DNA from: an uncultured Isosphaeraceae bacterium
Lineage (GTDB): Bacteria; Planctomycetota; Planctomycetia; Isosphaerales; Isosphaeraceae
Reading direction: 5' to 3'
DNA: 64,000 nt
Assembly: GCA_945957605.1 (NCBI GenBank)
Contig: CAMFLR010000004.1
Coordinates: 62,001-126,000, forward strand
Both the position numbers and the translations under genes were made by a program. Below, one piece after another: positions 19,001-36,419 of this stretch (within the stretch, counting starts at the first letter, position 1; each line of letters starts with the position of its first letter). Below the pieces are notes generated by a model. The model was given only the letters and a program-made list of their open reading frames with translations. It was not told where the DNA came from and searched no databases.

Positions 19001-22000
19001 GCCGACGACAGGCAACAAGCCACCATCAGTTCCCTGTCCGAACGGGTAGATTGTGAGGGGATTTTGCTTCAGTGCGACGTTGGTTCCGGTTACTTCGATC
19101 ACGGGTGCAATCACGTCGTGGCCGGTCTGATTCCGGACGTTGAGGATGACGTCGATCGACCCGCCGACCGAGATGTATCCGCCGGCTTCATGTGGCGAAA
19201 GCTGGCCCTGGGCCACTGTGGTCTCGTTGACATCGGCATCGTTGACAAGCGGCTTCGGCGCGAACGCGGTATTGCCGTTATCAAGGGCTTCGAGCTGGTA
19301 CGTTCCCGGCGGCATTGCGTTGAGATTGAATGCGGCGAAGATGTGCGTCGAATCGGCGTAAGTAACCGACATCGCGGCGTATGCCGTGCTGCTCGCATCC
19401 ACTAGACGTACGGTCGTGTGAGGTGTGAAACCGGCGCCGGTAAGGGCGTAAGTGGTGATACCCTGCGTTGCATACGACTGCAGAGCATACTTCTGAATTT
19501 CAAGAGACGAAGTCGACACGGAGAGCGTGAAGGATTGGCCGGCACCTGCAGCGCCTCGGCCATGCAGGAGGATGTAGGTAGCGCCCGGCTGCGAACCGGG
19601 GAGGATCAGACTCTGGATTAGGTCGCTTGGCGTAGGATAGTCGTGGTCGAATGTGGATACGGTCGGGAATTGGAGGGCCCGGACCAGAAAATCGGCTTGC
19701 GAAGGCGACGTGAAATTCGCGGTGAGCTTGACGTCCTGTCCCGCCGGGACGTTGACCCGATAGTAGACGTCTTGCCCCGATGCGATCGAGCCAGAAATTG
19801 GTGTGCCGGGAGTGATCGTGGGGATCGCAACGGCGAGAGCGGCCGACGCGAGCACGTTGTTGCTTCGATCGACGTCGGGTTCTAGCGACTGGCCGTCGGC
19901 CTCGACGAGTACGTGATAGTTTCCTTCCGCCGTACCGGGCAAAATTGCCGTGAGCGTTCCTTGGTAGCTCGCACCAACGGCGAGGCCGCCGTTATGAGTC
20001 ACGTGGCCGATCATGATGGCGCTGGGATCGAGCGTGGTGAGACTTGAGAGGAAAATGGTGTCGACCCAGCTTCCTGTGAGTGCACTCCCGCCCTGGTTCT
20101 TGATCGTGAAGTTGACGGTGATCGGCTGCCCCGCGAATGCATTTGTCGACGTTACAGCGGCATTTGTAACGATGAGGTCGGGCTGATTCGAGATCGCTTG
20201 GAGCGTGAGATTGGTGGGATTGAGGATGGGGTTCAGAATCGCTTGGCCACCCACGGAAAGCCCGCTCGTGGTCGAGAAATTGCCATTCTCGCCAGCGAAT
20301 GAAAGCACGGTGAACGTTTGACCAATAGCCGTGCCAAAGCCGTTGACGAGCTTGATATCGAGCGTGCCGCCGAGGTTTGCGGTGCCATTTACAATCACCT
20401 GGTCGTACTGTTTGCTCGGGGAGGTTCCGCCGAGTGCGACGGTGAGCGCTCCGGTCGGCGTTTGAGTGAAGTTGCCCGTCACGTTGAGCGTTCCGGTGGC
20501 GATGCCCAGGTCGAGACTAGCCGCGTTTGTCAGGTCCCCCTGAACCGATCCCGGTCCGCTGAACATACCCCCCTGGATGTTGATTCCAGCATGTGGAGCG
20601 GTCGCTAAAGTCCCCCATTGCAGGCTGGTGCCTCCACCCGTCTGGAGATACGACGCGACGGTCAGGGTGCTATTCAGACCGAGGCTAACGACACCTGCGT
20701 TGGTGAGTGCGGCGGTGTCGGTGATGTTGGCGCCGCCGGTTATTGTGAGCTGCGCGCCGCTTGCATTGGCGGCGAGAGTCGAAAGGGCGCTGGTTGATCC
20801 CAGGTCGCTGTAGATATGCGAACTGGGGCCGCTGAGCACGATCTTCGCGGCGTTCGTCGTAATCTGCGAGCCTATGATCTCGAGTTTGCTGTTGTTGGTC
20901 GCTTCCCAGGTTCCGCCGGTGAGGGCTCCGCCTGCTAGATTCGTGGCACCCTGAATGGCCAGAGTACCGCCGTCGTCGGCGTTGACGGTGCCGTTCATCG
21001 TGACCGTGCTGCCGGCGGTGCTGCCGATGTAGCCGTGACCGTGGATCGAGATGCCGGGAGCGATGGTCAGCGCAGTGTTTGTGCCCAGAAGCAGCAAGCC
21101 TTGATTGCCGCCGCCCTGGCTATCGATTGAGATCGTGCCCGTGCCGCTCAGGGCCTCGGTTCCGGTGAATGTGAGGGAGTTCGTACCTGCGAGCGCGATC
21201 GTTGCGCCGACGAGTGTGAGACCGTTCGTGATGAGCGGGCTCAGCCCACTGCCGTACAGGCTGTCGTCGAGAGTTCCCTGGATCGTGACACCATTGAGGG
21301 TACCGCCTCCCTTAACCAGCAATTCCGCCCCGGCAGTGGTTGTGATCAGGCCGCCAATGATGATGCCGCCGTCGAGGACGAGCGCTCCGGTGATATCGTT
21401 GAGCACGAGCGGGATGTCGTTGGTCAGAGTTCCGGCAATGCCGATGAATCCCTGCGTCGCGTCGATGGTGCCGATCGTCGACGTCTTGAAATATCCGCCC
21501 AGTTCCAGCGTGGAGTTGTGCGATGTGATGAGTCCGGTGCTCGACCAAGACGTGCCCGCGGCGCCCTGGAGAGTAAGCGGGCCGCCGCCATCGGCGTCGA
21601 TCGTACCCTGGTTGAGAACGCTTCCGGATTGGATGTTGACCGTTCCGTTCGTCCCATGCAGCGTAACTCCCGCGCCAAGTGTGAGGTTGCCCTGGACCTG
21701 CATCGCACCGCCGCGGCCCGCAAACACAATCTGTCCGTTCCCGCCGACCGTCTGATTTCCGTTGAACGATATCTGGGGCAGAAACGTTGCTGCGTTCACT
21801 TGAATCACGCTGCCGTTGGCGAGCGTCAGACCGCCATTAACCGCGGCCGAGCCGGTCGCAACGAGCACGTTGCCAGGCTGCGGCTGGCCAGCTACCGTCG
21901 CGCCCAAGGTTAGGCCGGAAAGCGTCCCTCCTGCGTCGGTCTGCAGGTTTTGGCTGCCCAAGGTAGCCAGAGCGCCGCCCTGAATGGTGCCACCTTCAAG

Positions 22001-23899
22001 AATCCACGAACCCTTGGTCGCGCCGAGAACCAGAGTGCTGCCGGCATTGTTCAATTGTCCGGTGACATTGACCACGCCGCCGGTTCGAGTGAAGTTCGCC
22101 AGGTCGGCCGTGGCAAAGTTGCCGCCCAGGTTGAGCGTGCCGTTCTGCACCACGATCGCGCCCGTGTTCGACCACGACCCAGCAAGTGAAAGCGTGCTGT
22201 TGCTTGTCGTTTCAAGGAGAGCGCCGGCCGCATTTGTCCAGGAAGCGGTTGTGGGGTCGAAATACATGTTGCCGCCGGAAGTGGCTTCGAGAATGCCTCC
22301 GGCCGCATTCGTCCATGATGTGCCACCGAAGAGGCCGAACTCGATCCCGCCGGTGTCGGCGTCGATTGTTCCCTGGTTGATCAGGCTTCCACTGGTGACG
22401 AGGAGTGAACCATTTCCCCCGTGCAGAGTGACTCCCGGGCCCATCGTCATGTTGCCCGCGACTTTCATTGTTCCGCCACGGCTGGCGAACTGGATTTGCC
22501 CGGTTCCGGTGACGGATTGGTTACCGACGAACGAGACTGTGGGCAGGAAAGTTGCCGCACTAATTTCGACCAGGCCGAGATTGCCCAGAGTGAGTCCGTT
22601 GGCAATCGTGGCTGCTCCCGTGGCCACCAAAAACTCGCCGGGTTCATCTACTCCGCCGATGGCTGTCCCGAGGGTGAGACCGTCTAGCGCTCCGCCGGAA
22701 TAAGTTGAGTTCAGCACAGTGCCGTCGAGCGTCACGAGTGCGCCGCCCTTGAGCGAACCGCCGGCGAGGTTCCACGAGCCTGTCGCGGCGTCTAGGATCA
22801 ACGTGGATCCAGTGTTGTTGAGCGTGCCGGTCAGGTTCACCGTGCCGCCGTTCGACGTGATGCTGTTCGGGCCGGCGGCGGTCGTGAACGTGCCGCCCAG
22901 ATTCAGCGTCGATTGATTCGTTGTGAACTGCCCAGTGTTGCTCCAGTTTCCGCTCAGGTTTGCTGTGCTGCCGTTATCGAGTTCGAGCAGACCGGCGTTG
23001 CTCCAGTTACCTTCCAGATTCAGAGTGCCGTTGTTTGCTTTGAGCGAAGCACCGGCGGCATTACTCCAGTTGCCGGTAATTGAGAAGGTGCGACCGTAGT
23101 CAGGCTCGATGATTCCTTCGTTGATCAGATTGCCGATCGAGCTTTTGATCAGTCCACCAGTTCCGTGAACTGTGATCCCTGGGCCGAGCGTGACGGGAGA
23201 GCCAATCGTTGAAATGGTTCCCACCAAGCCGGGCGATCCGCTCGTTCCTAGCACGATGTTGCCGGTTCCGTCGATCGTCGCTTCCACCAGTTCAAGCTCG
23301 CCGGCATCGCCGACGGTGATCTGTCCGCCGTCTGCGAGTGTCAGGCTTTGCTGGACGGTTGCCTTTGCATCCACGAAGCTCAATATGCCGCGGAGGGTGA
23401 TATCCTGAAGATTTGCGCCGGCGGCGGTAGTCGTCACAGTTGTGCCGGCCTGGATATCGGCGGCGGCGAGTGAACTACCGTTAATCACAATTCCAGCGGA
23501 ATCCTTCAACAAGCCGCGCGGCGTGTTTCCAATGAGTCCGGCGCCGCCCGTAAGCTGAAGGCCATCCAAGCCATTGATGACGAGTGGCGCGTCCGAGGTC
23601 AGGCTGTGGATATCGTGTACGACGAGCTTCGAGATCGAGACGGCACCGCCGAAATTCAAAGCTGGGATGACTACATCGTCGGCAGATCCCGGGACGTGGT
23701 TCGTACTCCAATTCGACGCATCGTCCCAATCGCCAGCGTTTTGGTTGATCCACGTGACCACAGACAGCATCCGGCGCTCTTCCAGTTCCTCGATGTGAAG
23801 GCGACGAACGAGCGCCTTCCGCGACTTTTGGCGAACGATCGCGGCAGCTCGCCTGCGGGCTTTTCGCGGACTGGAATCTTGATGCGAAGTGCGTGGCAT
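13052..23899 (-). CDS. Giant LEER protein: beta-helix, CARDB, RHS/YD, MBG, dockerin
   Basis: A 3615-residue exported surface protein. The ATG at 23899 follows GGGGAGAG. Basic N-terminus with LEER at 39-42. Order: G8/beta-helix repeats (about 60-1200), a CARDB-like domain (1236-1350, IKNQGGSAL), a PPC-like domain (1356-1460, SGSIASGQDVYYRVNVPAGQ), a DUF6531-type RHS start (about 1745) and some 25 YD repeats (1790-2530). The RHS core ends at GNIYEYATNNPVTQADPTGF, followed by a hydrophobic segment (2636-2683), a beta domain (2730-2880), fibronectin-like (about 2900), two Ig-like (3000-3190) and three MBG domains (3190-3443). A linker then leads to a type I dockerin (3553-3613, DFNGDRTVTTVD and DFNGDGIVDVND). 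No toxin domain ends the RHS part. Upstream by 247 bp lies a receptor kinase gene. Confidence 0.88.
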   Translation of the reverse strand: MPRTSHQDSSPRKARRRAAAIVRQKSRKALVRRLHIEELEERRMLSVVTWINQNAGDWDDASNWSTNHVPGSADDVVIPALNFGGAVSISKLVVHDIHSLTSDAPLVINGLDGLQLTGGAGLIGNTPRGLLKDSAGIVINGSSLAAADIQAGTTVTTTAAGANLQDITLRGILSFVDAKATVQQSLTLADGGQITVGDAGELELVEATIDGTGNIVLGTSGSPGLVGTISTIGSPVTLGPGITVHGTGGLIKSSIGNLINEGIIEPDYGRTFSITGNWSNAAGASLKANNGTLNLEGNWSNAGLLELDNGSTANLSGNWSNTGQFTTNQSTLNLGGTFTTAAGPNSITSNGGTVNLTGTLNNTGSTLILDAATGSWNLAGGSLKGGALVTLDGTVLNSTYSGGALDGLTLGTAIGGVDEPGEFLVATGAATIANGLTLGNLGLVEISAATFLPTVSFVGNQSVTGTGQIQFASRGGTMKVAGNMTMGPGVTLHGGNGSLLVTSGSLINQGTIDADTGGIEFGLFGGTSWTNAAGGILEATSGGNMYFDPTTASWTNAAGALLETTSNSTLSLAGSWSNTGAIVVQNGTLNLGGNFATADLANFTRTGGVVNVTGQLNNAGSTLVLGATKGSWILEGGTIQGGALATLGSQNLQTDAGGTLSGLTLGATVAGQPQPGNVLVATGSAAVNGGLTLANGSVIQVNAATFLPQISFNGNQTVGGNGQIVFAGRGGAMQVQGNLTLGAGVTLHGTNGTVNIQSGSVLNQGTIDADGGGPLTLQGAAGTSWSSTGLITSHNSTLELGGYFKTSTIGTIDATQGFIGIAGTLTNDIPLVLNDITGALVLDGGIIIGGLITTTAGAELLVKGGGTLNGVTIQGTLDDSLYGSGLSPLITNGLTLVGATIALAGTNSLTFTGTEALSGTGTISIDSQGGGNQGLLLLGTNTALTIAPGISIHGHGYIGSTAGSTVTMNGTVNADDGGTLAIQGATNLAGGALTGGTWEATNNSKLEIIGSQITTNAAKIVLSGPSSHIYSDLGSTSALSTLAANASGAQLTITGGANITDTAALTNAGVVSLGLNSTLTVASYLQTGGGTSLQWGTLATAPHAGINIQGGMFSGPGSVQGDLTNAASLDLGIATGTLNVTGNFTQTPTGALTVALGGTSPSKQYDQVIVNGTANLGGTLDIKLVNGFGTAIGQTFTVLSFAGENGNFSTTSGLSVGGQAILNPILNPTNLTLQAISNQPDLIVTNAAVTSTNAFAGQPITVNFTIKNQGGSALTGSWVDTIFLSSLTTLDPSAIMIGHVTHNGGLAVGASYQGTLTAILPGTAEGNYHVLVEADGQSLEPDVDRSNNVLASAALAVAIPTITPGTPISGSIASGQDVYYRVNVPAGQDVKLTANFTSPSQADFLVRALQFPTVSTFDHDYPTPSDLIQSLILPGSQPGATYILLHGRGAAGAGQSFTLSVSTSSLEIQKYALQSYATQGITTYALTGAGFTPHTTVRLVDASSTAYAAMSVTYADSTHIFAAFNLNAMPPGTYQLEALDNGNTAFAPKPLVNDADVNETTVAQGQLSPHEAGGYISVGGSIDVILNVRNQTGHDVIAPVIEVTGTNVALKQNPLTIYPFGQGTDGGLLPVVGPYSHVKLDISAPVVPAQAGVGGTIGYGVVDLQAPIDWNSQKDVLRPSNISADAWDAIYANFIQALGPTPAVMQQVLFNDELYLSSLGESVTSVDQLMGYELMKAEDAMTGPSLNTAVDDSIPAPGTPLSFQRTYIQSLDGRYRLGTLGRGWVSNWDISASTDAAGKVTIFDAGHIRVFTPMSGGGYQSEPGDYGALNLVGGVYQLREKDGTITAFLHDGRLNYIQDANGNRVTAGYNGTQLMTLTHSDGDSLFLVYNPQGRISQIIDSAGWSTTYTYDGSGQHLLSVSNPSGTTQYTYIDGANIEQEHALQSITHADGTHTNFSYDALGRLSQQSGDGGSGQLNYTYFNPGGYTITDANNAVTQILYDVNGQPAQTTDPLGNITQLRYDSNGQLIMSGLVGGLSTSFTYDANGNVTKIVDPLGNTSQFSYNPLFGSLENYVDPLGNATGYQQDGQGNPLGITYPNFSSMQATSDASGNLIQAVDARGQIVANDYNGRGQIIDQTLSDGTHIVYTYDNQGNLASATDANGTTTLTYDNAHHLTKIAYPNNQYLKYTYDAGGRRSSMTDQTGFTVNYQYDAVGRLAVLSDGQNNLIASYSYDAAGRLLCEDMGNGTYTTYTYDLAGNTKSLINYAPNNSINSRFDYTYDANGLRTTMTTLQGTTTYGYNAAGELTSVLLPGNRTITYSYDATGNRTEVSDSGVATDYTTNNLNQYTSVGGTSYTYDAAGNLIVKVGGGTGTIYTYDTEDRLTGVQNATDTWIYQYDALGNRIGAIHNGQAEHFLIDPLGQNALVGEFDSKGNLLAHYTQGIGLTSRIDASNAKTFYNFDGSGNTVGISGSAGTYVNSYSYLPFGEIQSSAQTIANPFQFGGQLGVMAQGNGLNIMGARFYDPATGRFLSRDPIGIAGGGNIYEYATNNPVTQADPTGFYPVGYGYGPAANLGFYGGQASSYGSQTVYVVNADLTSTVVTGAKTAVASVEENPGVWSTVTAAASGAWATFNTWAAGTALGEATGIFGLSVGAGGAALLATVASIGAAIVSVGLVFDQASKLYQEWPRVAPHYDVIKDQNGEYSVVQIAAVDPNYISGPAGYGSQGFIQPQTELPYEIGFENESDALAPAQTVTITEQIDPNLDWSTFQLGDFGFGGRTYTVPAGRQFYTTRIDATSSVGVFVDVTGNFDEQTGLLTWQFTSIDPETLDEPKGIVLEGFLPPDKTAPEGQGWVSYTVLPKASDLSGTVIQAMASVVFNTNAPIDTPKALNTIDATAPESSVTALPQTSSPSFGVSWSGNDNPGGSGIAGYDIYVSDNGGVYTPFLLGTAATSATFTGQSGHTYSFYSVATDNVGNIEPTPASAQAQTFVLVGAGTSTAIQSSQNPSPYGSIVTFTATVSATQPGADVPSGAVQFVVDGANVGSPVTLVNGAATSPTLGALGVGNHSIIALYIPDSTEFSGSQASLAGGESITKAETSVSVESSLAAPVYGDALTFTAFVAPTNPALATPTGAVQFLLNGVSFGAPVILVNGIATTLPISSLGAGTYLVSAVYSGSGPLASAVADDLPITISRALLSISADDKKRIYGQANPAFTYTVMGLVNGDSASVLSGSPSFSTTATAASHVGSYPITIDTGTLSAANYDITQFDSGTLTINQAALTVRADHQTKVYGQTLPNLTATFSGFVNGDTLAVVGGAPSLSTTATAASPVGTYPITVTLATLSALDYTFSAVNGSLDVTKAHLTVTANDQDMGHGDAVPALTDAITGFVNGDLPSVIAGVPKLSTTATSLSAAGQYPINVDVSGVSATNYDFNGIPGTLTVHPKVTDVRVHWGKQSISIVGLNRDLPFATIQSLEVIFSDPVQAPDASALSLTSRSNSGVNYLPSTSGTTASADVTWNLPSAIGIDALLLSLDKTRIGALVGAKSIGLFGANSWNFDVLPGDFNGDRTVTTVDAIYTRNDMVGPYVTWADFNGDGIVDVNDVIFVQKKIGTKLPPSN
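21350..22760 (-). repeat. Two long beta-helix repeat units in the RHS giant
   Basis: Two successive units of about 260 residues share the same order of phrases (DGLTLG/SGLTLG, AATFLP, GNQ(S/T)V, GQI(Q/V)FA, GVTLHG, NQGTIDAD). This indicates duplication of a whole helical segment rather than of single rungs. Confidence 0.6.
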
Positions 23900-24146
23900 C
23901 GTGGTGCTCTCCCCGGCTGAAACCCGCAAGTCGTGTTTGTTCACCTGGAACCGCAAGCGCGCAGAGCCCCATTCCCAACTGGGTGTAACCAGCCGGGTTT
24001 TGGCCCAGGGTGGCCGTGTGCTTACGAACGAATCGACGCCCCTAAGGACTCAATTGCGTTCGGAACGCGATTGGTAACAGGCGAAATCGCGTTTTCAGAA
24101 AATTCCTGGGAAAACGCATTGGGGCGGAGTGGGGGGCAATTCTGGG

Positions 24147-27100
24147 TCAGCGGGCGAAGGGATTGGAAGGGAGGTTTGGGAGATTCGTACCAAACAAGTT
24201 GCGAGCTTCTGCGAACAAGCCATCGATCTCGTAGCTCTCGCCTGCGTCGGTAATCCTGGCCTGAGCTCGCCACTGCTCGGCTCGTGCGAGGGTGGCTCTC
24301 GCGAGTTCAATGCGACCGAGACGATGCTGACACATCGCGAGCACGAGCAGGTCGAACACATCAGGGCCACGTTCTTTGATGTTCAACTCGCTAAGTTTGA
24401 CGCTCTCTTGATACTCGCCAACGCGATACAGAGAAAGAGCCAGCGTATTCCTGACATTTTGCTTGTTCGACATGATTGCCAGAGCCCACCGCGCCCAGCG
24501 GACAGCTTCGGCCGGATCGCCGCGACCTGGCCGCAGAGCGAGACACCAGGCGAGTTCGTTGGCGGGAAGCCCCCAGTCAGGCCGCTCTCGAAGGCTGGCT
24601 TTGTAGTCGGCCGCCGCCAGTGGCCATAGGCCGATTTTTGCCCAGATTCGGGCGCGACGATAGAGCTGGTCGGGATCCGTCATTTTCGATCGGAGCATTC
24701 CACGGAAAGCGTAAGACGCTTCAAGCAAAGCTTCGAAGCCAGAGAGACGCAACAGTCCCTTATCATCAACGCCCATGACCGTGACTGGTCCGGGAGTCGA
24801 TTCAAGCTCATCGTCGTCATCGTGACTCTCGAACAGGTCTGGAAACCCTCGCGCCAGGTTCAACCCGACAAGCCTTTGGCGGATTCGCGCGAGATCCCAA
24901 AGCGCGACCTTTTGGTTGCTGTATGAAACGGCGAGCAACCGGCCATCTGGGCTAAAGCTCGTGGAATAAGGGCTGACGTCGTCCGGCCCCTCAAGAGTTG
25001 CGAGAATCTCTCCCGTATCAACATCGGCGAGTCGCACCACTGAACGAGTCGCCTCGTTGATTGCAACGAGCTTGCCGCTGGGATGGAACTCCACCATCTT
25101 GAAGCCAGTGTTCCCGCCATGGGGGATCTCGGTCGCGAGAGTCCAGTCAGAGGTTCGGTAGAAACGAATATGAGACGCTCCAGTCATCGCGATCAGCCGG
25201 CCGTCGGGACTGAAGTCCGCTCTGCTGTTGACAACAGGGAACTCGTGCACGAGCCTGTTGCGATTCACGTCCCAGATGCGGACGGTCGTTTCTTTGCGAG
25301 TTGATTCAACTCCCGACGTGGCAACCCACCGGCCGTCGCGACTGACATCGAGGTAGCCGACGTCGTTGTGCGGACCGAGCCACGTAGAACTCCAGGGACG
25401 GCCTGGGTCGAGGAGTAAGGTTGCCTGGTAGCCCTTGGCACTTAATGCAAGGAACCGTCCTTTGGAATCGCTATCGAGGCCCGTGGGAATGTTTCCTGAG
25501 TTTCCGAGGAAAGGCGCGAGCAGCATTGGCGGGCCAATGGTTCCTTCGCCATTCTCTCCCGGCCGAAAACGCCAGTGGCATAGGCCGAGAAAGTTGTAGG
25601 TGACGAGTGAGCCGTCGGGAAGGAAGACTGCTTCGTCGCAAACGCCAATCGGCAATCGTGCTACTTGCGAGCCGTCGCTTGCTCGGACGATGAGCACGCC
25701 GTCGGGCCGCATCGGTAGCGCCACGAATCGGCTATCGGGACTAAAACTCACGCGAGCGGGGCCGAAATGCTGATCGGTGGGAGGATCGGCCAGGGCACGG
25801 CAATCGATATATCGATAACCATCGCCTGATCCAATCCGATAGCGCGTGAGGCTATTGGGAAAGCCTGCGACCGGGTCGCGATTCGACTTCGTCCAGCCCC
25901 AGAAGTTACCTGGCAACACCATAAGCTGGCGGCCACGCAACGGATCCCAGCAACGCACCGTGCCGTCCCAGGCCCAGGATGCGAGAAGCCCGTTTGTTCC
26001 CAGGAAGAGCACGTTGATTCCGCTCGCTTGATGCCCCTGGAGCATCGAGAGCTGCTCCGCTGTTCCAACTTCGTAGACCCAGATTGACCGGTCGCTCGAA
26101 ACGGCGAGTAGGCGGCCTTCGGGGCTCAGCGCCACGGTCGAATGCACGCGCAGCGCTGGGAGCTTCGGTTCGAAAAGCGTCCTGTCGGTTTGGACGTCGT
26201 GAACCCATGCTTTTCCAGCGTCCTGGTTGAGGACGGCGACCCGCTTTCCATCGGCGGAGAGGGAAAGCGCCATGAAGTTGAGCCGGGTAGGGAATGTCGA
26301 CGGGATCCGGCATCGGCCCGCTACGGTCATATCGGGAAGGTTGAAGAGATCGACTTCGCCATCCGGTCGTAAAACTGCGACCTGCAAGCCGTCGCTACGG
26401 AATTTCGCGCAACGTACGTCGACCGGCCAGGCCGAGGGGATTTCGCTCCGCTCCAGATCCCACAGCTCGATTCGTCCCGCCGGCGCAGACACGAGTAGGA
26501 ATCGACCGCCTGGATTCAAGAACGGCCAAAACCGTTGTCCCGCATTCTTCGGTCGAACCACGCTGAGTTCCGACTGATCGGACAGCCGGCGAATGTGAAT
26601 CTCGCCATCCTTGCCGAGGTGGACTTGTCGGTCGACGTCGAATGCGAAAGAGTCGAGATGCTCGTATACATCGAGTCCGCTCCAGGTTTGAATTGGCCGC
26701 ATTCCCCCTTCGGCGAGCGCTGCAATTGCTTCGTCGCGCAACTCCTTCAGCAGAGTCGGGGGAGTTGCATCATCCTGGGCGATCTGTGCGGCGCGGCTAA
26801 GCGTTTCGACCGCTGCGTCTCGCACACCGGGTTCGCGGGCATGTCGTAGCGCGCGGCTTTGCAACAACAACGAACGTGCAAGCTCGATCCTGGTGTTTTG
26901 CTCTTCGCGCCGCTTCTCGTCGCGCTGGGTGCGGAAGGTCAAGGCGGCGACGGTCGATCCCACGGCAAGTACCGTCGTAAGCAATGCTGCCAGCAAGGTG
27001 AGAACCGCGAGCGCGGGATTTTTTCGCGACCATCGCCAGAGCCGTTCGGGGGCCGACGCCCGCCTTGAATGGATTGGGCGGCCCGCGAGGAAACGATCGA

Positions 27101-28316
27101 GTTCCCGCGCCATTTCCGCCGCGCCGGCGAATCGATCGGACGGACGCTTGGCCATCGCCTTCAGTACGATCGTTTCGAGGTCACGCGGGATTCGTGCGTC
27201 GAGTGCTCTTGGCCGCGAAGGCTCGACCTGAAGGATCGCGTTCATCAGCAACATGCGATCGAGGGCAGAGAATGCCGGTCGTAGCGTCAGCAATTCATAA
27301 AGCGTGAGGCCAAGGCTGTAGACGTCTGATCGTGCGTCGGCCTTGCCTCGGAAACGCTCAGGCGCCATGTAACGCAGCGTGCCCACAACGTCGCCTGCGG
27401 CCGTGAGTTCCTCGGTCCCTTCTTCCCTCGCCAGGCCAAAGTCAGTTACCCAAAGAGTGCCCTCGAGGTCGAGAAGGAGATTTGCCGGCTTGATGTCGCG
27501 ATGCAAAACGCCGTGCGTGTGGGCGTGAGCCAGTGCCTCGGCGGCCTGCAGGCCCATGCGGGCCACAGCTCGAAAATAGTGTCGCTCCTGGCCACCGTAC
27601 CCGGACAGAGACGACGAGGAATTTGATACTTGCACCTGTTCTGTGGGCGCTTCGACACTCGTACTGGCGCCAGTTAGCGGGGCTCGGTATTGGCCAGTCC
27701 GGAGCCCGGTGGCAAGGCGTGGCGGCAAGTCGCCATCGGCGACATCGCCAGTCGTGAGGTTGCTACTGCCATCGTCGCGTTGGCGGGTCAACTCTGCGAG
27801 AACCGTGTCGAGGCTTCGTCCCTCGATGTACTGCATCGCGTAGTAGTGAATGCCTTCGTGTGTACCCACCCCGAAAACCGGCACGATGTTTGTGTGGTGC
27901 AGCCGTGCCGCAGCCCGTGACTCGCGCTGGAACCGAACGAGATGAACGGCCTCCATGTGGCGGTTGAGCGATAACACCTTTAACGCGACGCGCCGCCCCA
28001 GGCTCTCCTGTTCAGCCTCGTAAACCACACCCATGCCGCCACGGCCGATTTCGCGGAGAATTCGAAATTCGCCAAGCCGATCGGGTGGTGTTGCGGTCGA
28101 TGGACTCGCGCCTTCTGTCCGACGGTTTTCCTGACGCGTCCCACCGACCCGTTCCATCATCACCAGGGTCGGAAAGAGGTCGCGAATATCATCGGCGAGG
28201 TCGGGGTTGTGCTGAACGTATTCAGTAATCGAGGGATGTTCGCCGCGGCGGAGACGCTCGGCGAATTCGTAAGCCAGGTCGTTGAATACCTCAGAAGGGG
28301 TGGCTGGATCGCCCAT
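24147..28316 (-). CDS. Ser/Thr protein kinase with WD40 and TPR repeats
   Basis: A 1389-residue receptor-type kinase. The N-terminal 80 residues match the short helical leader of planctomycete kinases (EFAERLRRGEHPSITEY). The kinase domain (about 83-410) has GRGGMGVVYEAE, ALKVL, HRDIKPANLLLD (Asp274), DFGLAREE (Asp292) and APERFRG; a Ser/Thr-rich loop of about 80 residues is inserted before the catalytic loop. A membrane segment follows at about 432-460. The outer part has WD40-like propeller repeats (about 560-1150) and TPR-like helices (1205-1375). Its ATG is 3 bp after the stop of the ECF sigma gene, so the two are translationally coupled. This sigma-kinase pairing suggests that ligand sensing by the propeller controls the sigma factor by phosphorylation; that is inference from the family. 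Confidence 0.92.
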   Translation of the reverse strand: MGDPATPSEVFNDLAYEFAERLRRGEHPSITEYVQHNPDLADDIRDLFPTLVMMERVGGTRQENRRTEGASPSTATPPDRLGEFRILREIGRGGMGVVYEAEQESLGRRVALKVLSLNRHMEAVHLVRFQRESRAAARLHHTNIVPVFGVGTHEGIHYYAMQYIEGRSLDTVLAELTRQRDDGSSNLTTGDVADGDLPPRLATGLRTGQYRAPLTGASTSVEAPTEQVQVSNSSSSLSGYGGQERHYFRAVARMGLQAAEALAHAHTHGVLHRDIKPANLLLDLEGTLWVTDFGLAREEGTEELTAAGDVVGTLRYMAPERFRGKADARSDVYSLGLTLYELLTLRPAFSALDRMLLMNAILQVEPSRPRALDARIPRDLETIVLKAMAKRPSDRFAGAAEMARELDRFLAGRPIHSRRASAPERLWRWSRKNPALAVLTLLAALLTTVLAVGSTVAALTFRTQRDEKRREEQNTRIELARSLLLQSRALRHAREPGVRDAAVETLSRAAQIAQDDATPPTLLKELRDEAIAALAEGGMRPIQTWSGLDVYEHLDSFAFDVDRQVHLGKDGEIHIRRLSDQSELSVVRPKNAGQRFWPFLNPGGRFLLVSAPAGRIELWDLERSEIPSAWPVDVRCAKFRSDGLQVAVLRPDGEVDLFNLPDMTVAGRCRIPSTFPTRLNFMALSLSADGKRVAVLNQDAGKAWVHDVQTDRTLFEPKLPALRVHSTVALSPEGRLLAVSSDRSIWVYEVGTAEQLSMLQGHQASGINVLFLGTNGLLASWAWDGTVRCWDPLRGRQLMVLPGNFWGWTKSNRDPVAGFPNSLTRYRIGSGDGYRYIDCRALADPPTDQHFGPARVSFSPDSRFVALPMRPDGVLIVRASDGSQVARLPIGVCDEAVFLPDGSLVTYNFLGLCHWRFRPGENGEGTIGPPMLLAPFLGNSGNIPTGLDSDSKGRFLALSAKGYQATLLLDPGRPWSSTWLGPHNDVGYLDVSRDGRWVATSGVESTRKETTVRIWDVNRNRLVHEFPVVNSRADFSPDGRLIAMTGASHIRFYRTSDWTLATEIPHGGNTGFKMVEFHPSGKLVAINEATRSVVRLADVDTGEILATLEGPDDVSPYSTSFSPDGRLLAVSYSNQKVALWDLARIRQRLVGLNLARGFPDLFESHDDDDELESTPGPVTVMGVDDKGLLRLSGFEALLEASYAFRGMLRSKMTDPDQLYRRARIWAKIGLWPLAAADYKASLRERPDWGLPANELAWCLALRPGRGDPAEAVRWARWALAIMSNKQNVRNTLALSLYRVGEYQESVKLSELNIKERGPDVFDLLVLAMCQHRLGRIELARATLARAEQWRAQARITDAGESYEIDGLFAEARNLFGTNLPNLPSNPFAR

Positions 28317-28319
28317 TGG

Positions 28320-28955
28320 TTACTCCTCCAGCCATTCGGGACCGACGCTGGCCATGATCTCCTTGAGCCGTCGGAGAGCGCGGATGTATCGCATGGCCGC
28401 GGCCTTTTCCTGGATTCCCAGCACCTGTGCAGTCTCGGACGGCGAAAGCTGCTCGAAATGGCGCAGCGCGAGGACTTCGCGATCGAGCGAGCCCATTGCA
28501 TCCAGGGCTTCCAGAAGCCGCGCTTCGAGCTCTCGGCGGATTGCCGCTTCGCTGGCTCGTGTAAGATCGTCGAGAAGTCCAGCGACCATCGCCGATGTGG
28601 TCGACTCCGGGGCAGCGCCGTGAATCGGCACTTCGCGACGAGCGTCGCGCATTTGCGTTCCCAGGTGATGCCTGTGAATCTCGAGCAGCCGATTTCCGGC
28701 GATTCCGCGGAGCCAGAGATAAAACGGAACGTCAGGCGCACGCTGGAACGAATCGAGACCTTTCCACGCTTCGAGATAAACATCCTGAAGGACGTCTGAA
28801 GGATCGACACGTCCCTGCAGCCGCGGATCGAGCCGAAATGATACCATGCGTCTCAAACGTGGGCGGCTCTCTTCAACGAGCGATTCCCAGCTATCGACGT
28901 CGCCCTCGGCGGCGAGCCGGATCGTCTGGTCATTTGAAAGCGGGCCTTCGCTCAT
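28320..28955 (-). CDS. ECF-type RNA polymerase sigma factor
   Basis: A 211-residue ECF sigma factor of the planctomycete type. The sigma-2 region (about 30-95) has MVSFRLDPRLQGRVDPSDVLQDVYLEAW and FYLWLRGIAGNRLLEIHR; the sigma-4 region (about 150-205) has LDREVLALRHFEQLSPSETA and a helix-turn-helix to VLGIQEKAAAMRYIRALRRL. The start at 28955 (MSEGPLS) fits the usual family length, although the ribosome site is weak; a GTG-led extension to 29063 has no family similarity. No anti-sigma factor follows; the WD40 kinase begins 3 bp downstream and probably takes that role. Confidence 0.9.
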   Translation of the reverse strand: MSEGPLSNDQTIRLAAEGDVDSWESLVEESRPRLRRMVSFRLDPRLQGRVDPSDVLQDVYLEAWKGLDSFQRAPDVPFYLWLRGIAGNRLLEIHRHHLGTQMRDARREVPIHGAAPESTTSAMVAGLLDDLTRASEAAIRRELEARLLEALDAMGSLDREVLALRHFEQLSPSETAQVLGIQEKAAAMRYIRALRRLKEIMASVGPEWLEE

Positions 28956-29160
28956 GAGAGATTCGACACCCGTTATACACACGCGAATTATTTCCGAAGC
29001 AGCGCCTCGGATTTGCCTTACCCGATGAAAATCGTACCGCCTGACGCCTCCGCGATGAAGCACTTATGCCGGATCATACCGATATACCAGCGCCCGGCGG
29101 CTTGCCTTCGACGTCAAAAGCAACTGAGACTTGCGTCTATGGGAGACCGCGAACTCGTGC

Positions 29161-30564
29161 TCAATTCTGCAAGCGTTTTGCTGTGAACGTGAAGCTTCGT
29201 TCATCACCAACTTTGAGCCCCTTGCCGGCGTCCCAGATGAGTGTTTCGCCGGGGATGACGACCTTGGCGAAGTCGGACTTCTCGAGTTTTACGTCCGTCA
29301 CGTTGTAGGGGAGCAAGTAGCTGAAAAGCCGCCAGCCGTTGTATTTTTCGGCGGTTCGCTTGTTGCCTTCGCCAACGAAGTTCACTTTTACTTTGTAAGT
29401 CATCCGAACGTCTTGCGAACCGGGGATTTGCTGGATGTCGAGCGTTTCGGTCAGGGCAGGGTCGCGGGATTTTTCGACGCGCCCTTCAAGAGCAGGATCG
29501 CCGTAGAGGACGAAGATTCCGTCGGTGAATTCCGTTCCTTCCTTGTCGCGGCCGGTAACCAACTTTTCCTCGAGCAGAAAGTGTGACCATTGGCGAAGCA
29601 GGAAGAGCGACTCGGAGAAAGTCCAACGGCCTTCCTGTTTCAAGAACCAGTCGGCCATGTTCCAGTTCAGTTCATACCAGGTCGATTGAACCGCGCCGAT
29701 GTACTGTTTCGTGCCATTTTTCATCCACGCAAGAGCATACGAGTCCTTGAAGCTGTTTCGACGCGTGTTCACAACACCGGTCAAGCAATTGCCGACGGCC
29801 CAGTAGATCTTGGGACGTGACGCAGTCAGCGGCATGCTCACGCCAGGCGCGGTCATCGTGAGCTGGCCGTCCTTGGCAGTGAGAAAGCCGCGTCCGCTGG
29901 GGTACATCAACATCCAGTTATGATGGCCGCCATGCCCGGAACCGATGATCAGATCGAACTTGTCGTCTGAGAGCAACTTGTGGACATATCGCGAATCTTC
30001 GGCATCGCTTTTCGGGCCGCCGGATGTGAGTGAAAAATCCTTATCGCGATTTTTCTCTCCTAGTTCGCCCCTGTCGCGCGTCCATTCGGTCACGTATTCT
30101 CCCTCGGGCACCCAGTTGAGCCAGTTGCCGAGTGTTTTTGTGAAGGCCCGTTTGATGACCACGGGCTCCGACTTCACCAGTTCGAGTGCATGGTTGTCAT
30201 CAAAGCCTGTCAGAATTCCCCAGATCGCATCAACGTAGGGATCGTCATCGAGCGAGCAGCAAAACTTGTTTGCCACGATTGCGAAGTCGGGGAAGTTCTC
30301 AGTCGGCGGGCAGACGAAGCAAACGTAGCGCGGATGGTACGTGCCGACGCTTTGACGAACTTCGTCGGGAGACGTTTCGTAGGCGAACGTTTTGCCTTTG
30401 TATTTCGATTGCAGGAACTGCGCGACCTTGCCCCACGGACCGGCCGCAACGTCGCGTTTGATGACAATCGCGTAGCGGGCAGGGGAGTCGGCGGCGATGG
30501 CTCGCTCGCCAATCGACAAGACCAACGCCAACACGATTAGCAGCAAGGCGGACGTCCGCGTCAT
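29161..30564 (-). CDS. Predicted secreted C25-like (caspase-fold) cysteine peptidase
   Basis: A 467-residue exported protein; the start at 30564 has GAGGA six bases upstream. Signal peptide about 1-24 (LLLIVLALVLSIGERAIAAD). The centre has a Rossmann-like beta-alpha order with two clan-CD signatures: a beta-strand ending in His (LIIGSGHGGHHNW, His211) and a later strand ending in Cys (YWAVGNCLTGVVN, Cys260). These match the His and Cys dyad positions of gingipain-type C25 peptidases. An N-terminal Asp/Tyr-rich region (about 25-200) includes HPRYVCFVCPPTENFPD. A C-terminal beta domain (about 370-467) resembles the Ig-like tail of such enzymes. It lies between a LEER giant and an ECF sigma gene, all on one strand. 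Family assignment rests on motif spacing and fold order only; substrate unknown. Confidence 0.7.
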   Translation of the reverse strand: MTRTSALLLIVLALVLSIGERAIAADSPARYAIVIKRDVAAGPWGKVAQFLQSKYKGKTFAYETSPDEVRQSVGTYHPRYVCFVCPPTENFPDFAIVANKFCCSLDDDPYVDAIWGILTGFDDNHALELVKSEPVVIKRAFTKTLGNWLNWVPEGEYVTEWTRDRGELGEKNRDKDFSLTSGGPKSDAEDSRYVHKLLSDDKFDLIIGSGHGGHHNWMLMYPSGRGFLTAKDGQLTMTAPGVSMPLTASRPKIYWAVGNCLTGVVNTRRNSFKDSYALAWMKNGTKQYIGAVQSTWYELNWNMADWFLKQEGRWTFSESLFLLRQWSHFLLEEKLVTGRDKEGTEFTDGIFVLYGDPALEGRVEKSRDPALTETLDIQQIPGSQDVRMTYKVKVNFVGEGNKRTAEKYNGWRLFSYLLPYNVTDVKLEKSDFAKVVIPGETLIWDAGKGLKVGDERSFTFTAKRLQN

Positions 30565-30648
30565 GGCAATTCCTCGACTGAAACGAGCGGTGACGACCAC
30601 AGGATCGTAACAGCTCGCTCAGACGGGATCACGCGAAAATGATCGCGA

Positions 30649-30695: not shown

Positions 30696-33600
30696 TCAAC
30701 TCAAGGTCATGCCCAGAAGGATGACGTTGTTGTTGTTTGGCAGCGTGACGGACTTCACAACCTTCGTCTTGTTCAGCGCGAACTGGTAACCATAAAGATA
30801 ATAGGGTCCGGTCTGAGCTGAGCCATTCGTGTTGTCGCGATAATTCGTCTTAACGGCGACACTTTCGCCGGAATTGCTGTTAGACACTCCCCAGTCGCTC
30901 AGCGTCTGGGTGAATGTCTGCGAAGTTCCATCGGTGTAGTTCACGACGAAATTCTGGTTCACCTGCTCCCCGTTGACCGCGTTCCCCACGAACGACAGGT
31001 TACTGAACGATCCGGCGGGCAGGTTGATCGTTTGGCCGCTCGCGGCGACCGCGTTGTTCGCTCCCAGCGATCCGGGATAGAAGAGCAGCCCGGCCCAGGA
31101 AATTGGCGAGCCCAAGCTCGATGCCGAGAACGCACTTCCCGCCCGGTCGATTCCCGGATTGTTCGTGAACGAAGATAAATCCGCGATGATGCCGAGACGG
31201 TTGAAACTCGCTTGCAAGTTGACCGAAGTTCCCACGAGCGGCGGAGCGCTCGTTTGCGGCGTGTAGGTGATCGTGTAATTGAATGGGTTTGGGAATTCCG
31301 TCGATCCGCCGGAAAGCGTGCCGTTGAACACGCCATTTCCAGAGGTCGGCTCGAAATAGGGGACGAGGTTTCCGGGCGAGTAACCTTGTTGACCGAATCC
31401 CCAGTTAAAGAAGGCATCGGCCCAGGTCGCGGGTGCCGATGCACCAGTCGTCGGATTGACCGCGGGCTTCGCTGCGTAATACCAGCCACCGTTGAGGCCG
31501 ACATAGGGTTGCTGAGGATCAATTGGCGACAGATTGACGCCGTTGATTGCATTTGGCGTCGAGACGCCAGGCGTCGCCGGTGCACCAAAGAGCTGGCTGA
31601 GCGTGCTCAGCGCGATCGGATTCTTATTCGCGTCGACCAGGTTCCAGCCCGAGATCATCGAGCCCGACTGGGAATAGTTATACCCATAGGTCGATTCCTG
31701 AAGCATAACGGGCGTCAGCGACAGGAAATATCCCGGCGAATTGATGTTCAGTGCGCCGGAGTCGGGAGCGTAGGGAAGACTTACGTCGCCCAAGTAGGGC
31801 GGGAAGTAATTTGTGGCAGGAGTGATCAGATTCGTTTGATCGTAGGGGCCGACGTTGACCGCGTGGCTTCCTTGAAGTGCCTGCAACTGGCCGAGTTGCG
31901 TGACGAGCGGTCCTTCGGTGTTCATCTGAGGCAGGAACGTGGCGAAGTTGCCCACGGTGTTGCCGGAGAAGATCGTCAGGTCGTCGGTGGTGTCGTTCGC
32001 AACGACGTAATCATTGAAGCCGTCGCCGTTGAAATCACCGGCAGCGAGGCCCGCGAAGATGCTCGTGCCGTTGGACTGGAAATGCACGGGTGCGTTATAC
32101 GTTCCCGGACCGTTGCTGAACAGCACACCAATTCCGCTGTAAGTGTTCGATGAGTGTTTCGTGTCGATCGTCTGATCGTACGCGAAGACCAGCGACGGGT
32201 AGGGGCTGTTATTCACCGGCACGGCGATCAATGCGCTTGGCTGATAGTTGAAATCGCCCGTCGAAACCGTCGTCGGACTCTTAAACGTCCCGTTCCCGTT
32301 GCCGAGCAGAATGCTGATCTCGCTCGACGAATCGGTGTTGTCTGCAACGGCCAAGTCGAGGTTGCCGTCGCCGTTGAGGTCGGTCGCGACCAGACCTTGC
32401 GGCCCGTCGGGTCCGCCTAGGCTGATCTTCTGAGCGGCCTGGAACGTGCCGTCGCCATTGCCGAGCAAAAGGCTCAGGTCGTCGGTGGAGTAGTTGGAAA
32501 CCGCGATGTCCTGGTTGCCGTCTTTGTTGAAGTCACCAATGGCGATTCCCTCTGCGCCATCACCACCCTTCAAGCTTACGGTCTTGGCATCCTGGAAAGT
32601 GCCGTCGCCGTTGCCGAGCAGAACGCTCAGCTCGTCGCTGGAATAATCAGTGACGGCGAGGTCGAGAATGTGGTCGTTGTTGAAGTCGCCGATGGCGATT
32701 CCCTTCGGACCGTCCGGGCCTTTCAGGCTAACCTTTTGGGCCTTTGCGAATGTGCCGTCGCCATTGCCAAGCAAAATGCTCAAATCGTCGGTGGAGTAGT
32801 CGGCAACTGCGAGGTCGAGACGACCGTCGCCGTTGAAATCGCCAGTTACGATTCCTTCAGGACCATCACCGCCGTTCAAGCTAACTGTCTTGGCGGTTTG
32901 GAACGTGCCGTCACCGTTGCCAAGCAGGACGCTCAACTCATCGGTCGAATAGTCGGAGACGACCATATCGAGCTTATGGTCGTTGTTGAAATCGCCGACA
33001 GCAATGCCCTGCGGTCCATCTGGGCCGTTCAGACTGATATTGTTGCCAGTAAGGTTGGTTGTTTGCCCGTTGCCGGTTGGAAACGTCGTGGGATCGGTCG
33101 GAACCCAATGGAAGACAGCCGGGACCATCGTGTGCCATGAAGCGCGGCTCAGGATATTGGTTGCAGCGTCGCTAGGAGACAGCTCGCTCTTGCTCAGCAC
33201 AGCGCCGTCCATGTCCTGAAGTGCTTTCACCAGACCGTAGTTGCTCAGGACGGCCTGAATGAAGGTTGTGCTCGTCAAGGCGGCGTAGAAATTCTTCCAC
33301 TGATTCGTCACTGCGGCTGTGATGTTCGTGGAGAGGTCATCAAGGTGCGTCGCGTTTACGATGCTCGTCGTGACTGTGCCCAAGGGGACAGTCAGAGACA
33401 CGCTCGACGGCACTCCTGCTTCACCGATGAACGAGCCGGCGATCGAAGCGCCAGCGCCACCAAGAATCGCACCAAGAATTGGGGCACCGACCGCGGGCAG
33501 TCCGAACACAGCGCCAAGCGCTCCGCCCAAGGCCCAAACTGCGGCCTCGCCAATGACCTGGCCTGCGGACGGCGCGGCATTTGTGGGGAAGCTGACGGTT

Positions 33601-36419
33601 ACATTCTGAACTTGCTCCGCCTGCCCGTTCGCGATCGTCGCGGCGATGTTTGCCGGTACGCCGGCCGTTGAACTTACCGTTGCGAGGAAGTCGTTAACCC
33701 AACTTGCGAGCGTGGTCGGATTGGTCGGCGAGCCCGAGCCGGTGAGCACGGAATACGCCGTCTGCCGCATAATGTTTGCGTTGTAGAAGAATTCGTAAAC
33801 GGCATTTTGCGGGCTGCTCGCTGGCTGAACGGGGAACATGTTGTTCCCGTTGGGAGGCGTCGGCGGGCTGACGTGATACGCCTTCACGTAGGCATCGTCG
33901 AGGTCGCTCTGCACCGACCCGGCGCCTGTGGGCAACGTGACCGCGCTGTTGATCAGATTTGCGAATCCACCGCTTAAAGTACTGCTGTTCGAGACGAGGG
34001 TCGAATAGGCAGCGCTGAGTTGAGAAGCCCAGTTTGCACTGGTAGTAGCGAGCGGAGTGGGGAAATAGTTCTGGTCGGTCCAGAGCGGGAAATAACTTGC
34101 TGCCGCGGAATCACCCGATGAGTTGCCGGCGGTGTTATTGACGCCAGGAATGCTTGGGTCAGAATATGCCCACTGATAGACGACGTTATCGGGACCGGTG
34201 TGATTGTAACTCGTCAGCAACTCGGCCAAGCTGTTCAGAGAGCCGGGCGCAAGCGAGAAACTCACAGCGACGCCGCCGCCATTGGGAGGCATCCAGGTCA
34301 GTGTGATCTTGTAAGTGCCTGTGCGAGTCGCGCGGACAAAGGTGCTCTCCCCGCCTTTGATCGTCACCGAACTTGTGGTGCCGAGGTCGGTGACGACATC
34401 GACTTGGAGTTGGCCTAGAGACTCATCGGGCACCTGGATTTCAAGCTGATCGCCTGCATCGAGACCGACCTTGCGGACAACCGGAGCCCCCTCATTCACC
34501 GTAACTTGAGGCGATGCGAGAGGGGTCATGATATCGAGCCCCCACGTTCGCCCGCCTGCCAGCCGTTCAACGTCGGTGAACGGGTCGGTGGGGATGGTCG
34601 TGGGAACTTGCACCACGGTTGTCCCAGCAACCGGTGCGACCGCGCCGCCTCCTCCAGGGACCTGATTTGCCCATGAGGTGTTCGAGGCTGCGTCGAAGTT
34701 GAAATACTGCAGGAGATCCGTCTTGAGATCGTCGGCGGAAACAGGCGAGGTCATCGCTTGTTGGACCTGGCTCTGCGTTAGCGCAGTGGTCCAGCTTGCG
34801 ACCTCATCAATTGTGCCGATGAATCCCTGGGGATAGTTGATTTGAGGGTAGGGAGTGGACTGCTTCTCGGGGAACGTCGTCCCGCCGAGAGTGAAGGCCG
34901 TCGGCGCGTTGGCTGATCCACCATTGGCAATTGTGGGCGTGAACGAATACGAACCGCTCGAGAGGTTGATGACGCCTTCGAGCATACCGTCGAGGTAGAG
35001 GGATTCGCTGGTGCCCGTCACGACGAATGCGACGTGATGCCACGTGTTATCGACGACCGACATCTGGCTGACGATCGGATTCGCCGCGCCAACCTGGGCG
35101 TATCCGCTCTTGCTTTCGCCGCCTTGCAGTCCATTGGCAGCCTGCCAGCTAAGGACGGTCATGTTGTTCTGCACGGGGAGTTGCGTTGTGTCGAACAACC
35201 CCGCGACGAGATTTCCTGACGAGTTGATGTAGATCAACGGGGCTTGCATCGCAGTGCCATTGACTGCGACGTTTTCCGAAAGCAGGGCACCCGGCGATTT
35301 CGCCTGGAACCAGGTTTGGAAAGTCACACCCGATGTCAACGAACTCACGAGCGAATAAGGCAGAGTGAGCTGAGGCTGAACCGCTGTGCCGGTCATGATC
35401 GCGTTGTAAGGGACTTGCGGCAGAACGACGCCGTTGCCCCAGGGCGAAGCAGAAGGAATGCCCGTGCCCGACACGGCGAGAGGCTCGTTATAGGCGGCGG
35501 GATCGGTGACTGGATCGGGAACGAGTGCCTGCCGGTTAGTTAGGTAATATTGATCGACCGGATCGCCAACATTCACGCTCGCCGAAACACCGAGCGCGGA
35601 GCGCCGCTCGACATCTTGGCGCGACTCGGTACTCGAAAGGAAGCGAGCGAGCACGAGGCGGAAGCCCTGAGGACCGGCGATTTCGCGATTTGCGACCTTC
35701 AAGGTTTGGTCTGAGAACTGGCCCTGTGTCAAAGCGATGCCGGAAAGGCGCTCAGTCCAGGTACGCTGGAACTGAGGCGTTTTCACCAGGGCATTCAGCA
35801 AAGCCAGCCGCTGTGCAACGGTGTCGACAGGGCGATTTTGGAGCGAGGCTGGCAAGCTCGCCGCGCTGAGAAGGTCGCGTGCAATCAGCTTGCGGTACGC
35901 CAGCGGATTGCGATTGGCCCGTGCAAAATATTCCTGGCTCGCAGCAATCTGGATCAAGGCCGGCGCGAGATCACCACGCTTGATGAAACCCGAGGGATGA
36001 ACGTAAGGAGCGCTGGGATTCTCGGTGCGGTTCAGCAAGAACTGGTAGGCAAGTTGCGAAGTCGCGACGCGTCCTTCGGGAGTTTGCAGCAATTTGAAGA
36101 TCGCCGTGCGCGGCGAAAGACCGTTGGCGATTTGCGTGGCCGTTCGCGTGACAATTTGCTGCGGCAGAGTCGTGTGCAGCACGAGCTTTGCCAGATCGTT
36201 CAACCATCGAACGTTATCTGCAACCGTCCCCGCTTGAGTTCCTGACACGACCGCCGGTGCCAGCGACTGCACGGAACTCAGAGGCGAGGCTGTGAGCGCG
36301 ATCCGCTCCTCGAGGGCTTCAAATTGCAAGCGAGACGCTCTGCGTCTCGATGCGCGGCCCTGGAAAAGTCGACCTTCCTCGTGATTTCGCTGCTCGCGGC
36401 TCCGCGCATTCGCTGCCAT
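30696..36419 (-). CDS. Giant LEER protein: DUF4214-like, LamG-like, VCBS repeats
   Basis: A 1907-residue exported protein; the ATG at 36419 has GAGGA upstream. Basic N-terminus with LEER at 36-39 (FEALEERIALTASP). Order: helical DUF4214-like repeats (about 60-290; VHPSGFIKRGDLAPALIQIA, SQEYFARANRNPLAY), a LamG/concanavalin-like sandwich (346-546; YLDGMLEGVINLSSGSYSF, GTIDEVASWTTALTQSQVQQ), a beta domain with pre-peptidase-like features (about 600-690) and a long central region with a Gly/Ala-rich membrane-like segment (about 950-985). Five or so VCBS/FG-GAP repeats follow (1125-1386) with Ca-binding loops such as GDFNNDHKLD. The C-terminal third is a planctomycete-specific region ending in beta strands. 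Probably a calcium-stabilised adhesin or matrix protein. A 17-bp palindrome sits 47 bp upstream. Confidence 0.82.
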   Translation of the reverse strand: MAANARSREQRNHEEGRLFQGRASRRRASRLQFEALEERIALTASPLSSVQSLAPAVVSGTQAGTVADNVRWLNDLAKLVLHTTLPQQIVTRTATQIANGLSPRTAIFKLLQTPEGRVATSQLAYQFLLNRTENPSAPYVHPSGFIKRGDLAPALIQIAASQEYFARANRNPLAYRKLIARDLLSAASLPASLQNRPVDTVAQRLALLNALVKTPQFQRTWTERLSGIALTQGQFSDQTLKVANREIAGPQGFRLVLARFLSSTESRQDVERRSALGVSASVNVGDPVDQYYLTNRQALVPDPVTDPAAYNEPLAVSGTGIPSASPWGNGVVLPQVPYNAIMTGTAVQPQLTLPYSLVSSLTSGVTFQTWFQAKSPGALLSENVAVNGTAMQAPLIYINSSGNLVAGLFDTTQLPVQNNMTVLSWQAANGLQGGESKSGYAQVGAANPIVSQMSVVDNTWHHVAFVVTGTSESLYLDGMLEGVINLSSGSYSFTPTIANGGSANAPTAFTLGGTTFPEKQSTPYPQINYPQGFIGTIDEVASWTTALTQSQVQQAMTSPVSADDLKTDLLQYFNFDAASNTSWANQVPGGGGAVAPVAGTTVVQVPTTIPTDPFTDVERLAGGRTWGLDIMTPLASPQVTVNEGAPVVRKVGLDAGDQLEIQVPDESLGQLQVDVVTDLGTTSSVTIKGGESTFVRATRTGTYKITLTWMPPNGGGVAVSFSLAPGSLNSLAELLTSYNHTGPDNVVYQWAYSDPSIPGVNNTAGNSSGDSAAASYFPLWTDQNYFPTPLATTSANWASQLSAAYSTLVSNSSTLSGGFANLINSAVTLPTGAGSVQSDLDDAYVKAYHVSPPTPPNGNNMFPVQPASSPQNAVYEFFYNANIMRQTAYSVLTGSGSPTNPTTLASWVNDFLATVSSTAGVPANIAATIANGQAEQVQNVTVSFPTNAAPSAGQVIGEAAVWALGGALGAVFGLPAVGAPILGAILGGAGASIAGSFIGEAGVPSSVSLTVPLGTVTTSIVNATHLDDLSTNITAAVTNQWKNFYAALTSTTFIQAVLSNYGLVKALQDMDGAVLSKSELSPSDAATNILSRASWHTMVPAVFHWVPTDPTTFPTGNGQTTNLTGNNISLNGPDGPQGIAVGDFNNDHKLDMVVSDYSTDELSVLLGNGDGTFQTAKTVSLNGGDGPEGIVTGDFNGDGRLDLAVADYSTDDLSILLGNGDGTFAKAQKVSLKGPDGPKGIAIGDFNNDHILDLAVTDYSSDELSVLLGNGDGTFQDAKTVSLKGGDGAEGIAIGDFNKDGNQDIAVSNYSTDDLSLLLGNGDGTFQAAQKISLGGPDGPQGLVATDLNGDGNLDLAVADNTDSSSEISILLGNGNGTFKSPTTVSTGDFNYQPSALIAVPVNNSPYPSLVFAYDQTIDTKHSSNTYSGIGVLFSNGPGTYNAPVHFQSNGTSIFAGLAAGDFNGDGFNDYVVANDTTDDLTIFSGNTVGNFATFLPQMNTEGPLVTQLGQLQALQGSHAVNVGPYDQTNLITPATNYFPPYLGDVSLPYAPDSGALNINSPGYFLSLTPVMLQESTYGYNYSQSGSMISGWNLVDANKNPIALSTLSQLFGAPATPGVSTPNAINGVNLSPIDPQQPYVGLNGGWYYAAKPAVNPTTGASAPATWADAFFNWGFGQQGYSPGNLVPYFEPTSGNGVFNGTLSGGSTEFPNPFNYTITYTPQTSAPPLVGTSVNLQASFNRLGIIADLSSFTNNPGIDRAGSAFSASSLGSPISWAGLLFYPGSLGANNAVAASGQTINLPAGSFSNLSFVGNAVNGEQVNQNFVVNYTDGTSQTFTQTLSDWGVSNSNSGESVAVKTNYRDNTNGSAQTGPYYLYGYQFALNKTKVVKSVTLPNNNNVILLGMTLS
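32260..33045 (-). repeat. VCBS/FG-GAP coding repeats with two-unit alternation
   Basis: Tandem units of about 156 nt encode GDFN(N/G)DxxLD and LLGNGDGTF blocks. Units 1 and 3 share GPDGP, NNDH and DELSVLL; units 2 and 4 share GGDG and DDLS(I/L)LL. The array therefore grew by copying a pair of repeats. Confidence 0.7.

Follow-up and report, generated by a model that had tools for sequence, protein, structure and literature searches.

A predicted exported cysteine peptidase with a gingipain-like fold beside a LEER giant gene in an uncultured Isosphaeraceae bacterium

The window is a stretch of 64,000 nucleotides from an uncultured Isosphaeraceae bacterium. It contains a gene for a C25-like cysteine peptidase, which the original prediction placed directly after the gene for a LEER giant on the same strand and before a sigma factor and kinase pair. 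This gene order is correct: the LEER giant lies 131 bp upstream, and the ECF sigma factor and the kinase are downstream. The features of the locus are as follows.

24147-28316, minus strand: protein kinase with WD40 repeats (domain scan)
28320-29063, minus strand: ECF-type sigma factor (domain scan)
29161-30564, minus strand: C25-like peptidase gene, encoding 467 aa and ending in a stop codon (open reading frame list and homologues)
29164-29463, minus strand: C-terminal beta-sandwich-like domain, residues 368-467 (predicted strands)
29467-30489, minus strand: catalytic domain with gingipain-like N- and C-terminal subdomains, residues 26-366 (model and fold matches)
29494-29502, minus strand: GDP motif common to C25, residues 355-357 (30/30 rows of alignment A6 and 23/23 C25 rows)
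29785-29787, minus strand: codon of Cys260, predicted catalytic Cys (conservation; aligned with the C25 Cys)
29932-29934, minus strand: codon of His211, predicted catalytic His (conservation; aligned with the C25 His)
30490-30564, minus strand: signal peptide, approximately residues 1-25 (read from the sequence)
30696-36419, minus strand: LEER giant (1907 aa; LEER motif at 36303-36314) carrying FG-GAP repeats as well as a laminin-G-like domain

The ATG at 30564 seems a better start for the peptidase than the in-frame GTG at 30600, since a GAGGA (30571-30575) sits upstream of it with a spacing of 6 nt. Read by eye, residues 1-25 have a basic start, a hydrophobic core and an Ala-rich end with no lipobox Cys. 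On this reading the peptidase is probably an exported protein. The N-terminus is a low-confidence part of the full-length structure model. The source genome has one copy of the peptidase. A Pfam and NCBIfam scan of the protein gave no family at E<=10, sequence searches of the PDB gave chance-level matches only, and nothing matched in a scan with a defence-system library. Two checks for mobile elements were negative: no plasmid matched, and of 37 candidates none was confirmed as a viral-contig relative.

The full-length model has a pLDDT of 81.5, while the catalytic domain modelled alone has a pLDDT of 94.0 and a pTM of 0.92. The domain is predicted to have a caspase-like fold, so the outcome named as speaking against the original prediction, a model lacking such a fold, is not seen. 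Gingipains are the best Foldseek matches, with RgpB first (E 6.3e-9). A second aligner matched the catalytic domain alone to four RgpB and Kgp entries with Z scores of 21.8-22.1 over 275-284 of 341 residues. The next matches in the domain-alone comparison are separases and CHAT peptidases (Z of approximately 10-14.7). The original prediction had called for a comparison with both gingipain and PorU. The likeness to gingipain is strong, but latent PorU matches with a Z of only 8.2 over 206 residues and is not among the domain-alone matches listed, an absence that by itself rules nothing out.

His211 and Cys260 are present in SGHGGHHNW and VGNCLTG as was claimed. In the full-length model, each of the two residues directly follows the end of a strand, 205-209 for His211 and 252-257 for Cys260 (205-208 and 252-256 in the domain-alone model). 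The predicted placement, each residue just after a strand, is that of clan CD peptidases, which agrees with the original prediction. We infer from the fold that the two residues lie close to each other. His211 is invariant in three overlapping alignments (19/19 rows of A1, 28/28 of A3 and 30/30 of A6). Cys260 is found in 18/19, 28/28 and 30/30 rows, respectively; the exception in A1 is the row of the very distant locus L020, which is aligned in A3 but misaligned at the Cys in A1 and has its Cys in NIACYTG. Since sequences down to approximately 30% identity keep both residues and the fold matches gingipains with a Z of approximately 22, the dyad is more than a chance pairing.

Membership in C25 itself is a separate question. 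Of 294 genomes from the phylum, 150 match the Pfam C25 model (PF01364), but the window protein does not match it in a scan to E<=10. Among its relatives, 7/19 rows of A1 match PF01364 at E<=1 (best 5.7e-4) and 2/28 rows of A3 match at E<=0.01. A PF01364 search of the source genome gave no match, though no control matched in that search either. For a more sensitive comparison, an alignment of planctomycete C25 domains was made from 23 of 30 retrieved C25 loci. Its identity is clear from matches to RgpB (1e-52), PorU (3.4e-49) and Kgp (2e-37). A profile of the window family matches this set with an E of 6.5e-10 over 283 columns. Leaving out row L020 gives 3.5e-8 over 148 columns, and both alignments put the His, the Cys and the GDP motif in register. 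With A3 the match to the C25 profile loses strength and length relative to A1 (E 9e-7, 94 columns), and a control of unrelated neighbour proteins (A4) gave an E of 0.92.

A Glu that is invariant in all 23 planctomycete C25 domains (E273 of L077) aligns with Leu278 of the window protein, and this position is Leu in 27/30 rows of A6. The Glu is our own marker of C25 and is not taken from MEROPS. Because the Pfam match and the invariant Glu are both absent, we call the window peptidase a C25-like sister family rather than a C25 member, judging by sequence. The C25-like caspase fold, the dyad and the export signal are supported. By its predicted fold and dyad, the window protein would work like a C25 peptidase. 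Several relatives found with an alignment query, among them L108, L109 and L110, are long proteins that match mainly the N-terminal subdomain, and L110 also passes PF01364 weakly. Such proteins may bridge the window family and C25.

Compared with gingipains R and K, the protein has the same fold over the whole catalytic domain, His, Cys and GDP in the same sequence and register, and a predicted beta-sandwich-like domain following the catalytic one, but only 11-14% identity. RgpB has an Ig-like domain in the latter place, whereas the window protein has a predicted beta-sandwich at residues 368-467, where the full-length model is of lower confidence (strands 371-379, 385-394, 413-430, 439-445 and 455-464) and fold matches are weak (Z up to 7.9). 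The RgpB N-terminal propeptide is given as 229 residues in PMC4357240. In the models of the window protein the catalytic domain starts at approximately residue 26, right after the signal peptide, and a propeptide of gingipain size is absent. Therefore, a large N-terminal prodomain is not likely to be the inactivating device here. The planctomycete C25 proteins are distant sequence relatives in the same phylum by profile comparison, but all 30 pass PF01364 clearly and 11/30 carry Propeptide_C25, unlike the window protein. PorU is also a C25-type peptidase, but its large multidomain chain, which functions together with the type IX machinery, has 1156 aa in comparison to 467 aa. The type IX component SprA had no match in the source genome, and no control genome matched either. 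Separases and CHAT peptidases (Csx29/Craspase) have the clan CD fold in common with the window protein, but are clearly less similar to it than gingipains. They are cytosolic complexes.

The window protein is fairly probably an exported, stand-alone clan CD cysteine endopeptidase of the gingipain (C25) fold, belonging to a diverged sister family. The signal peptide would direct Sec export, after which the protein would fold into the two-subdomain caspase-like catalytic domain and the C-terminal beta-sandwich. Conservation and fold suggest that Cys260 would attack the peptide bond with His211 as the base. In RgpB, the P1 arginine is described as bound by Asp163 and by two main-chain glycines around the His, under a Trp284 lid (PMC4357240). 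In the window protein Gly210 and Gly212 flank His211, although position 212 is Ala in 22/30 rows of A6. Trp296 is in the loop corresponding to the RgpB lid and is Trp in 26/30 rows. Glu160 (29/30 rows, with one Asp) is between the first strand of the catalytic subdomain and the strand of the His. Speculatively, the substrate may be bound under an aromatic lid with Trp296 as the candidate, and Glu160 could be the acid for a basic P1 residue. Both assignments are guesses that rely on aligning the sequences by hand, and they could be mistaken. The resulting activity would be general proteolysis or turnover of periplasmic or extracellular proteins in those planctomycetes that carry the gene.

Scanning genome contigs for relatives of the peptidase turned up 8 loci, and every title names Planctomycetota or one of its genera. 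Matches were found in 12 of 99 relatives, the source genome included. Of these, 8 are close (71-80% identity, besides the source genome itself) and 4 are distant (30-34%). A query with the alignment matched 73 of 392 genomes of the phylum, many of them by the N-terminal part only. The close clade (15 rows) has 59-77% identity to the window protein, which in these sequences is indicative of purifying constraint. The close peptidase is present in 6/45 genomes of the same family. Limnoglobus roseus is a cultured species that carries an orthologue. This patchy presence fits many roles. In a tree of 18 rows that was asked about horizontal transfer, the branching of the close rows gave no resolution. 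The truncated L008 is in A1 but was excluded from A3, A6 and A9. A3 also excludes L041, L043 and L047-L050. Eight loci (L009, L014, L021-L024, L055 and L061) are repeats of others and were left out.

The original prediction proposed that the peptidase processes surface proteins. As a dedicated processor of LEER proteins it would either cut the N-terminal LEER region or free the ectodomain of its neighbour after export. No terminator-like site was found between the LEER giant and the peptidase gene on their strand. An LE.R gene is also directly upstream of the close peptidase in L003, so this arrangement is seen in 2/15 close loci (1/14 without the window). That is more than we would expect blindly, but the first of the two prompted the finding. 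The upstream neighbour in L007 is a surface-type protein with FG-GAP repeats. However, the peptidase has no conserved partner. The order of LEER gene, peptidase, sigma factor and kinase is not conserved, no gene family recurs in the 15 close loci beyond very close relatives, and no Pfam family is found in more than 4 of 62 neighbours of close and intermediate loci. Neighbour genes were called with a simple codon-score script, by which the intermediate loci L111 and L112 gave no family gene.

The distribution of the motif also argues against this role. A profile of the motif region has a best match below 0.0016 in 28/28 same-family genomes, and two of the best-scoring genomes contributed rows to the profile. 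All 44 relatives searched match it at E<=10, a threshold at which some of the weak matches are due to chance. Only 5 of the same 28 same-family genomes have the close peptidase; most genomes with LE.R thus do without it. Since LE.R is in all 28 same-family genomes searched while the peptidase is patchy and its neighbourhood is not conserved, the proposed processing of LEER proteins is not borne out. A LEER-processing role is possible, yet it is not indicated, and we consider it unlikely that the protein is a dedicated LEER processor.

Other LE.R proteins were seen around these loci. The protein directly upstream of the peptidase orthologue in L003 (552-1931, same strand) has 459 aa, an LEPR motif and no Pfam match, and no likeness to the LEER giant of the window was seen outside of the motif. 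L005 and L006, which form a sister pair, have an LE.R gene three or four genes off on the opposite strand. The window itself has a second giant (13052-23956, minus strand, 3634 aa) downstream of the kinase gene, with an N-terminal LEER, RHS/YD repeats and an RHS-associated core domain. A literature search on LEPR-type sorting signals and planctomycete giant genes or surface proteins gave no title recognised as describing the LEER motif.

Distant relatives of the peptidase have a link to a transglutaminase-like domain (PF01841). The domain is found in 5/10 long members scanned with Pfam, before or after the peptidase domain, and the two orders imply more than one fusion. A local profile finds it in 9/41 non-close sources, in the same frame in 6 (L098, L099, L100, L101, L103 and L124) and in an adjacent gene on the same strand in 3 (L116, L117 and L119). 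The profile was built from five fused members; Pfam independently found those five and two neighbours. The transglutaminase Cys and His are apparently intact, as judged by eye. Within 1.5 kb the domain is present at 7/28 family loci in comparison to 0/30 C25 control loci (Fisher p 0.004). By Pfam in the same open reading frame the numbers are 4/28 and 0/30 (p 0.048).

A broader reading, in which the proteins form a clan CD family of their own, a sister of C25 seen here only in Planctomycetota, and have a wider function tied to transglutaminase-like chemistry, is improbable as a whole. The enrichment at family loci favours reading the window protein as half of a peptidase-transglutaminase pair, in which cleavage would be coupled to amide transfer or crosslinking by a partner encoded elsewhere in the source genome. 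None of the 17 close-clade sources, the window included, has such a neighbour. Because the window clade is without the transglutaminase link, the link says little about the window gene, and such a pair is quite unlikely here. It is very unlikely that this clan CD protein is non-proteolytic or has a regulatory role, such as one together with the sigma factor whose gene comes after that of the peptidase: a domain of the anti-sigma factor DdvA (PDB 8rot) is similar (Z 13.7), but the dyad is invariant in 30/30 rows of A6, and the sigma neighbour is not conserved, with sigma genes making up only 2 of the 62 neighbours scanned.

The preferred reading is therefore that of the stand-alone exported peptidase. 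This keeps what was observed correctly (the fold and the dyad) apart from a role that is attractive but lacks support. The protein is probably ordinary in function and new as a family. A literature search on C25 in planctomycetes and on gingipain with transglutaminase found no title describing this family. The branch that it represents, one of probably exported peptidases with the gingipain fold, lies outside Bacteroidota, is uncatalogued and is missed by the standard family libraries used. If the wider function tied to transglutaminase-like chemistry is true, some members would cut exported proteins while others would cut and re-join them, and the window clade would be the stand-alone form. 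The transglutaminase link in distant relatives gives a specific clue to how proteins mature at the surface of planctomycetes.
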